24,487 nucleotides of DNA, taken from Planctomycetota bacterium. GTDB taxonomy: Bacteria; Planctomycetota; Planctomycetia; Pirellulales; Pirellulaceae. The DNA lies in the NCBI GenBank assembly GCA_026692885.1, contig JAPLNJ010001196.1, forward strand, positions 1-24,487, read 5' to 3'. The notes beneath the pieces were generated by a model that did not search any database, had not been told where the DNA came from, and was given only the letters and a program-made list of their open reading frames with translations. Positions 2,662 through 21,813 of the stretch are shown here, piece by piece (the first letter of the stretch is position 1; each line of letters begins with the position of its first letter). The translations under genes were made by a program, and so were the position numbers.

Positions 2662-2710
2662 GGACCCCCGCCAGCTCGTCTGGCAGGTGAGCAAGTCTTG
2701 TGAGCGAGCA
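2662..2710 (+). repeat. Transposase-flanking palindromic element, upstream copy 1
   Basis: This is a 49-nt unit beginning GGACCCCCGCCAGCTCG and ending CAAGTCTTGTGAGCGAGCA. It is repeated 77 nt downstream at 2739 with only a few substitutions, and its reverse complement matches the two units downstream of the transposase. The core forms a short stem (GCCAG/CTGGC around CTCGT). Confidence 0.85.
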
Positions 2711-2738: not shown

Positions 2739-2787
2739 GGACCCCCGCCAGCTCGCCTGGCCGGTGAACAAGTCTTGTAAGCGAGCA
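2739..2787 (+). repeat. Transposase-flanking palindromic element, upstream copy 2
   Basis: This 49-nt copy has the same length and orientation as 2662-2710. Its reverse complement aligns across nearly its full length with 3718-3764, sharing ACAAGACTT, TTCACCGGCC and GGCGAGC. It is the closest upstream match to the downstream copies. Confidence 0.85.
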
Positions 2788-2914: not shown

Positions 2915-3715
2915 ATGGACCTTCGTCCCCTGTACGAACCTGGCGGGGTGACGCCCTGCTACAGGCTGCGGTACGGCTGGGCGGGCTGGCCCACGCTCGG
3001 AACCGAGTTCCCGGCGGCGATGGAACATCTGCTCTCTGCACCCTCGGCCGACTGGGAGCGTGACCACTTACGCCTCCTGGAATTCTCGTTCTCGCCGGAA
3101 CGCGTGTTGATGACCTTCAGCGTCACACCGCAAGTCGCGCCAGTCCTTTTCGTCGCCCGCGTGAAAGGCAGACTCCAACACTCGCTGCGGCAGGCAGGTG
3201 TGCCGGTCAAATTCAACCGTAAAGTGGCGATGATGTCGATCGGCGAGAACCACCGCACGGACGTCGAGGAGTACATTCAGCGGCGCGCACAGAAGGAGGC
3301 CCACGAGGATCCCGCAGTTGAGGATCTGCTCCGCCAGTTCACGGTCGTGAACCCGTCGGTCGATCTGGCTGCGGCCTCCGAGACAACAAGCGGCCGGTAC
3401 TGGTACAATTTGCACCTGGTCATGGTGACCGCGAAGCGATGGCGTAACGGAGATCCATGTTGGCTGGGCAAGATCCGGGACCAGTCGCTGCGCATCGCCG
3501 CCAACAAGGGCTACGAGATCTCGCGATTGTCCGTCGCGCCAGACCACGTCCACATATCCTTGCGCGGGAATATAGAGCACTCGCCGGAGCAGATCACCTG
3601 GGCGTTTCAGAACAACCTGGCCTACGCGTTGGGACAGGTTCGCGTCTGGCAAGACACCTATTACGTGGGAACGTTCGGGGAGTACGACATGAATGCGGTG
3701 AGGATGTGGGAATGA
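2915..3715 (+). CDS. RAYT-like Y1 (HUH) transposase, apparently two fused Y1 domains
   Basis: The 266-aa product starts at an ATG 8 nt after AAGAGG. The C-terminal half has the Y1 plan: strand YWYNLHLVMVTAKR (~162-175), the HUH motif in APDHVHISLRG (H211, H213), a helix with ITWAFQNNLAYALG, then YYVGTFGEYDMNAVRMW. The position where the family normally has the nucleophilic tyrosine is W265. The N-terminal half has the same order of elements: CYRLRYGW (~15-22), VLMTFSVTPQVAP (~64-76) where HUH would be, helix VARVKGRLQHSLR, then MMSIGENHRTDVEEYIQRR, which places Y120 where the catalytic Tyr belongs. Y1 enzymes nick single-stranded hairpins via a 5'-phosphotyrosine and act as dimers with shared active sites. 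The flanking repeats support a RAYT role. Family assignment is confident; the split active site is inference. Confidence 0.85.
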   Translation: MDLRPLYEPGGVTPCYRLRYGWAGWPTLGTEFPAAMEHLLSAPSADWERDHLRLLEFSFSPERVLMTFSVTPQVAPVLFVARVKGRLQHSLRQAGVPVKFNRKVAMMSIGENHRTDVEEYIQRRAQKEAHEDPAVEDLLRQFTVVNPSVDLAAASETTSGRYWYNLHLVMVTAKRWRNGDPCWLGKIRDQSLRIAANKGYEISRLSVAPDHVHISLRGNIEHSPEQITWAFQNNLAYALGQVRVWQDTYYVGTFGEYDMNAVRMWE

Positions 3716-3717
3716 TC

Positions 3718-3764
3718 GCTCGCTAACAAGACTTCTTCACCGGCCGGGCGAGCCGGCAGGGGTC
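3718..3764 (-). repeat. Transposase-flanking palindromic element, downstream copy A
   Basis: The 47-nt unit GCTCGCTAACAAGACTTCTT...GGGGTC starts 2 nt after the transposase stop and is the reverse complement of the upstream units. Its core CCGGC/GCCGG forms a 5-bp stem around CGGGCGA. Confidence 0.85.
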
Positions 3765-3790: not shown

Positions 3791-3837
3791 CTCGCTGACG
3801 ATGACTTCTTCACCGGCCGGGCGAGCCGGCAGGGGTC
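3791..3837 (-). repeat. Transposase-flanking palindromic element, downstream copy B
   Basis: This is the second inverted copy, 73 nt after copy A. The 33 bases from GACTTCTTCACC through AGGGGTC are identical to copy A. It lies between the transposase and the convergent DUF1559 gene end at 3862, so it may also act in 3'-end formation. Confidence 0.85.
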
Positions 3838-6165: not shown

Positions 6166-6229
6166 GTAGGTCAGGCTTTCCAGCCTGACTTCTGGGCGTC
6201 TCGACGTCAGGCTGGAAAGCCTGACCTAC
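6166..6229. repeat. Inverted pair of GTAG-type REP elements (BIME-like)
   Basis: GTAG at 6166-6169 is followed by stem GTCAGGCT, loop TTCC, stem AGCCTGAC (6170-6189). After a 16-nt spacer the same element occurs inverted at 6206-6225, ending in CTAC at 6226-6229. The outer end overlaps the stop codon of the dihydroorotase-like gene (TAG, 6228-6226). Confidence 0.9.
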
Positions 6230-21701: not shown

Positions 21702-21813
21702 GTAGGTCAGGCTTTCCAGCCTGACTTTAGTAGGTCAGGCTTTCCAGCCTGACTTCAGTAGGTCAGGCTTTCCAGCCTGACTCCAAGACGTCAGGCTGGA
21801 AAGCCTGACCTAC
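21702..21813. repeat. Cluster of four GTAG-type REP elements (three direct, one inverted)
   Basis: Palindromes identical to the 6170-6189 unit (stem GTCAGGCT, loop TTCC, stem AGCCTGAC) lie at 21706-21725, 21734-21753 and 21762-21781, each preceded by GTAG and spaced exactly 28 nt. A fourth, inverted copy is at 21790-21809, ending CTAC at 21810-21813. The array fills the gap between the BatA and VWA genes. Confidence 0.95.

Follow-up and report, generated by a model that had tools for sequence, protein, structure and literature searches.

In the IS608 transposase TnpA, the active site is built in trans, with the Tyr helix of one monomer and the HUH motif of the other (PMC5934647), and in Y1 enzymes the metal is bound by the His pair together with a residue about four positions after the Tyr (PMC6006769). 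IS608-type transposition is explained by such dimer-built trans sites, yet the E. coli enzyme TnpA(REP), or RAYT (PDB 4er8), appears to be monomeric, with Asn as its third metal ligand (PMC6006769). This raises the questions of how such an enzyme can come to do without one of its sites, and whether the site that is left suffices to move repetitive extragenic palindromic (REP) elements. Here we describe a gene from a Planctomycetota bacterium (Pirellulaceae; GenBank assembly GCA_026692885.1), located on contig JAPLNJ010001196.1, of which we analysed positions 1 to 24,487 (hereafter the window). Its product belongs to the Y1 HUH transposase superfamily and carries two Y1 domains in one chain. 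Nature here provides a fused enzyme whose catalytic residues form a single composite set, as well as a branch that apparently represents the preceding step, so that purified proteins would allow a direct test of both questions.

The gene and its landmarks are as follows; the counts refer to the alignment of 327 proteins described below.

2915..3715, + strand: fused two-domain Y1 (HUH) transposase gene, 266 residues, ATG start (predicted structure with mean predicted local distance difference test score, pLDDT, of 95.5 and predicted template modelling score, pTM, of 0.92)
2936..3310, + strand: N-terminal Y1 domain, residues ~8-132, Tyr helix kept, HUH lost (profile match to IS608/ISDra2 TnpA; fold match for this half alone)
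3371..3712, + strand: C-terminal Y1 domain, residues 153-266, HUH kept, Tyr helix truncated
3272..3274, + strand: codon of Y120, the putative nucleophile (invariant, 326/326; aligned to the catalytic Tyr of IS608 TnpA)
3284..3286, + strand: codon of residue 124, Arg in the window copy, Gln in 316/326 relatives and metal-binding by homology (role of the Gln from PMC6006769)
3101..3109, + strand: R63-V64-L65, the degenerate HUH position of the N-terminal half (HxH at the aligned site in 0/327)
3545..3553, + strand: codons of H211-V212-H213, the sole HUH motif (H211 in 324/326, H213 in 325/326)
3707..3709, + strand: codon of W265, at the lost Tyr column of the C-terminal half (the column of the group C Tyr, 81/84)

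The original prediction, made from the sequence of the window, was of two tandem Y1 domains that share one complementary set of catalytic residues, and the comparisons bear this out. Each half separately matches the solved Y1 transposases of IS608 and ISDra2 by profile and by fold, and this includes the N-terminal half taken alone, for which a different fold would have been damaging. The C-terminal half exceeds the Pfam Y1_Tnp cut-off (5.5e-13, best stretch 164-263), and the NCBIfam transpos_IS200 cut-off is narrowly missed (53.7 against 55 bits). The predicted distribution of residues is also seen: Y120 lies in the segment DVEEYIQRR of an N-terminal half that has Arg and Leu at the HUH place, and the C-terminal half keeps H211-V-H213, has Trp at the Tyr position and ends with the protein at residue 266, one past W265. 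In a profile alignment with IS608 TnpA, Y120 falls on the catalytic Tyr and residue 124 on the Gln. An alignment of 27 N-terminal halves, 27 C-terminal halves and 18 single-domain Y1 proteins, made blind to which half was which, places Y120 and W265 in one column and R63 and L65 in those of H211 and H213. In the window protein the HUH motif and the Tyr occur once each, in different halves, so that this is not a single-domain IS200/IS605 protomer.

This pattern extends across the relatives. The 327 aligned sequences comprise group A, the window type (121: the best 120 of 509 matches, plus the query), group B (the best 120 of 961) and group C (all 86); groups A and B are skewed to closer relatives, since only the best-ranked matches were aligned. 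Y120, whose variation would have counted heavily against the prediction, is Tyr in 121/121, 120/120 and 85/85 members of groups A, B and C, with one gap. Position 124 is Gln in all but ten sequences (His in eight, Arg in two). A few sequences have a gap at the N-terminal HUH site, and five in group B have an HxH out of register within residues 52-72. At position 265, groups A and B have no Tyr among 214 letters (27 gaps) and Trp in 24; group C has Tyr there in 81/84, with Trp at the following Gln position in 69/84. A set of 38 genes, that of the window among them, was read at the DNA level: Y120 and H211 are present in 38/38, H213 in 37/38 and Gln124 in 37/38, the window being the exception. 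The ratio of nonsynonymous to synonymous substitution rates (dN/dS) is 0.09-0.18 in five pairs from three clusters of relatives, with dS near 1 in two pairs; by half it is 0.08-0.20 (N-terminal) and 0.06-0.11 (C-terminal). Judged from these ratios, both halves of the relatives are under purifying selection.

If two subunits with trans sites are fused, the observed losses take away all parts of one site and none of the other. Were the sites assembled in cis the same losses would destroy both, which is unlikely given the invariant residues and the low dN/dS. Trans assembly within the chain is the best explanation, because a cis arrangement fits neither the conservation nor the selection. From the complementary losses and the precedent of the site shared in trans in IS608, we consider it probable that the protein is, as predicted, a covalent pseudo-dimer of two Y1 domains in which, of the two trans sites that a homodimeric ancestor had, exactly one is kept. 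From the N-terminal half would come the nucleophilic Y120, along with a metal-binding Gln four positions later in most relatives, and from the C-terminal half both His; the reciprocal site, formed by the N-terminal HUH and the C-terminal Tyr helix, would have been lost. Such an enzyme may recognise the REP-like hairpins that flank its gene as single strands and cleave beside them, through a 5'-phosphotyrosine link at the one site. Rejoining of strands would require sequential turnovers or a second molecule, since one chain offers one Tyr at one metal site. The metal-dependent cleavage, the assembly of the site within a chain, the cleavage point and the mobilisation of REPs are what we infer from these comparisons.

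Could another tyrosine of the C-terminal half, Y257 or else Y250 or Y249, act in cis, leaving Y120 a structural role? In groups A and B, Y257 is conserved in 235/239 and Y250 in 219/241. In group C, however, Y257 is replaced by Leu in 72/86 while Y120 is still invariant, and it is Y120 and residue 124 that align with the IS608 Tyr and Gln. In the predicted structure, moreover, Y250 lies on the strand that precedes the Tyr helix, and the final helix of the C-terminal half spans only residues 259-262. We regard a cis nucleophile as very improbable.

Assembly of the composite site between two polypeptides, domain-swapped or head-to-tail, with the Tyr of one N-terminal half reaching the HUH of the other chain's C-terminal half to give a working dimer with two sites, predicts the same conservation pattern as assembly within one chain. 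It would also be in keeping with IS608 TnpA, which functions as a dimer. Here, however, two Y1 domains are already joined in a single chain, the model of that single chain is confident, and the Tyr-helix segment is modelled confidently only when the C-terminal half of the same chain is present, an observation of model confidence, not of distance. These features make a site shared between chains unlikely. Our levels of confidence in the within-chain pseudo-dimer and in its rivals overlap, and their sum is not one.

The single-chain pseudo-dimer resembles IS608 and ISDra2 TnpA in the fold and profile of each half, in having an HUH motif, a Tyr and, for the majority of relatives, the Gln, and in the hairpins beside the gene. 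It differs in having two domains per chain with one HUH and one Tyr, compared with two full sites, and in that inverted REP-like units, frequently several to a side, border the gene. In the window these units are:

2663..2697, + strand: REP-like hairpin unit, upstream copy 1 (0 in 100 shuffles)
2740..2774, + strand: REP-like hairpin unit, upstream copy 2 (0 in 100 shuffles)
3730..3764, - strand: REP-like hairpin unit, downstream inverted copy 1 (0 in 100 shuffles)
3803..3837, - strand: REP-like hairpin unit, downstream inverted copy 2 (0 in 100 shuffles)

Inverted flanking repeats were scored at 37 loci (38 minus one with flanks that were too short), some of which are closely related to one another. 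The highest value among 60 mismatched-pair controls is 34, which 23 of the loci exceed; 34 loci exceed the second-highest (22). A gene between inverted hairpin repeats resembles a REPtron, the arrangement of E. coli RAYT, and many relatives carry the database name 'REP element-mobilizing transposase RayT'. The E. coli enzyme differs in lacking the second domain and the Gln, and in its repeats, which have GTAG directly at the foot of the hairpin, whereas those described here tend to have CTA (TAG on the other strand) 15-17 nt 3' of it. This CTA occurs in 61/148 hairpins in the flanks of the 38 loci, every other offset accounting for at most three; a cruder count gives 60/112 against 25/108. By count the tail is not cleanly one-sided, since a mirrored count on the 5' side, made as a control, also gives 23 at 15-17 nt, which units lying the other way round may explain. 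Taken by locus, CTA is found at 13-18 nt in 23/38. If cleavage follows the E. coli pattern, which is at C|T (PMC8266576), the cut may fall at C|TA in this tail.

A unit pattern derived from the flanks in three genomes, G003, G535 and G559, matches 44, 29 and 17 units in these genomes, of which 37, 26 and 5 respectively lie away from the gene, often in tandem with ~72-nt spacing. In G002, G064 and G479, whose hairpins differ from the pattern, it matches none, and the pattern read backward matches none in all six genomes. An exact match to the window's own repeat is absent from the viral contigs searched.

Two further observations concern such repeats. In one locus (L090, G003:C88:35300-37700) REP-like arrays face each other across ~0.9 kb; no significant transposase remnant was found in the six stretches searched (best E 4.1). 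The window also holds REP-like elements of another family, which have GTAG at the foot (GTAGGTCAGGCTTTCCAGCCTGAC), at 2419-2442, 6166-6229 and 21702-21813: seven copies, six exact and one with two mismatches, where none is expected by chance.

Several results weigh against the single-site pseudo-dimer, for the family or for the window's copy of it. Similarity between the profiles of the N- and C-terminal halves is not significant (hhalign E 0.057 local, 0.37 global), and Y257, as noted above, is also well conserved. Coevolution between the Tyr helix and the C-terminal site is not significant either: in the within-group mean-field analysis the fraction of null windows that reach the observed count is 0.82, 0.48 and 0.11 at three cut-offs, and pseudolikelihood couplings are dominated by differences between groups. 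The mean-field analysis was run on all sequences, and its group-stratified version is almost unchanged. By hand count, 46 pairs between the Tyr helix (112-129) and the rest of the protein stand in the within-group top 400, 27 of them with the C-terminal half, 12 with the N-terminal half and 7 with the linker; these are at best a hint, since the site-specific test is not significant. The window gene is in none of the five dN/dS pairs, and its repeat tails do not carry CTA at the position where 23/38 loci have it. Lastly, Arg at position 124 is confined to the window copy and its 99% twin, and the His found there belongs to eight near relatives (P0003-P0007, P0013, P0024 and P0027). The window copy hence has Arg where a complete Y1 catalytic set has Gln or Asn four residues after the Tyr. 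In this alignment the His and Arg form a lineage-specific change at a metal ligand, and Arg124 lowers the claim of activity for the window copy, not for the family. The window gene may be a weakened, possibly impaired member of an otherwise constrained family.

The Arg at the metal-binding position and the repeats without the usual tail would also suit a domesticated REP-binding protein that has no cleavage activity, as would the class scan, where 35 genomes gave a match and 23 of these gave a single one. For the family, however, the Tyr, the Gln and the two His rank with the best-conserved positions, dN/dS is low in the relatives, and in G003, G535 and G559 repeats of matching type are also present at a distance from the gene. 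Domestication overlaps with the reading of a single-site pseudo-dimer and could apply to the window copy alone; we judge it improbable.

How did the pseudo-dimer arise? In a quick tree of the 72 domains, built without bootstrap, the N-terminal halves of groups A, B and C group together (Shimodaira-Hasegawa-like approximate likelihood ratio test, SH-aLRT, 96), as do the C-terminal halves (91), and within each of these two groups C separates from A+B. This suggests one fusion, with the N-terminal HUH lost before the split between A+B and C and the C-terminal Tyr lost in A+B only. Group C, the deeper branch, in which the N-terminal HUH is lost and the C-terminal Tyr is kept, there without Gln, is an apparent intermediate step. 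We do not claim a recent tandem duplication, because the halves lack significant similarity; fusion of two different Y1 lineages and duplication are equally possible. A placement of the N-terminal halves beside eight of the single-domain proteins and of the C-terminal halves beside the other ten has a support of 11 and is unusable.

Y2 HUH enzymes work by a flip-flop mechanism. A more speculative and rather improbable scheme would have the fusion of two Y1 subunits free one site to decay, in a stepwise shift from two trans sites to one. Loss of the N-terminal HUH would have left group C with one metal site, at which the N-terminal Tyr in trans and the C-terminal Tyr in cis might alternate at the same HUH, convergently with the Y2 enzymes; loss of the C-terminal Tyr would then have turned groups A and B into genuine monomers with a single site, which would process REPs by successive single cuts.

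Among described groups, class 3 of the TnpA(Y1) proteins (Quentin et al. 2018, PMC6006769) is found mainly in Planctomycetes, Acidobacteria and Proteobacteria, and has the motif Y----Q and atypical flanking structures. Its median length is 178 residues, compared with 266 here, and the two-domain form is not described in the available text of that paper. Group C N-terminal halves carry Y---Q--HH, which is the motif of its subclass 1.2. Relatives of the window protein may be among the data of that study, because it discarded long fusion proteins and five of the ten initial class 3 members lacked HuH or Y motifs. In the literature searched by title and start of abstract we found no paper on a two-domain Y1 transposase, which does not establish its absence from print.

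Matches (E up to 1e-3) occur in 20/392 genomes of a phylum sample, with nearly the full length covered in four (G002, G064, G117 and G133), and at 1e-10 in 35/397 genomes of a class sample; at most six candidates were scored per genome, so that misses are possible and the counts are lower bounds. Group C is rare: with the same limit of six candidates per genome, G133 is the one genome of the 392 that has a full-length match of this type, and none of 40 candidates from viral contigs was confirmed as a group C relative. At three loci (L058, L059 and L060) a break within the linker puts the two halves out of frame with each other. We read these as decay, not as a two-subunit version, there being no ATG near the break in the stretches inspected; in L058 a GTG stands three codons into the C-terminal frame, where re-initiation would be possible, and a short repeated stretch lies at the break. 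Another relative, at L001:2839-3474, matches only from about residue 104 on and is apparently decayed.

The neighbours of the transposase gene in the window are a DUF1559 gene with a prepilin motif, an argininosuccinate synthase gene and genes for Mur ligases, and no other Y1 match was found among the 11 window open reading frames scanned with Pfam. Elsewhere, a 258-residue frame (L028:1180-1956, + strand) contains a Y1 domain whose HUH motif reads DHVV, the second His being lost. It is another altered Y1 fusion, the N-terminus of which we take to be of LexA type.
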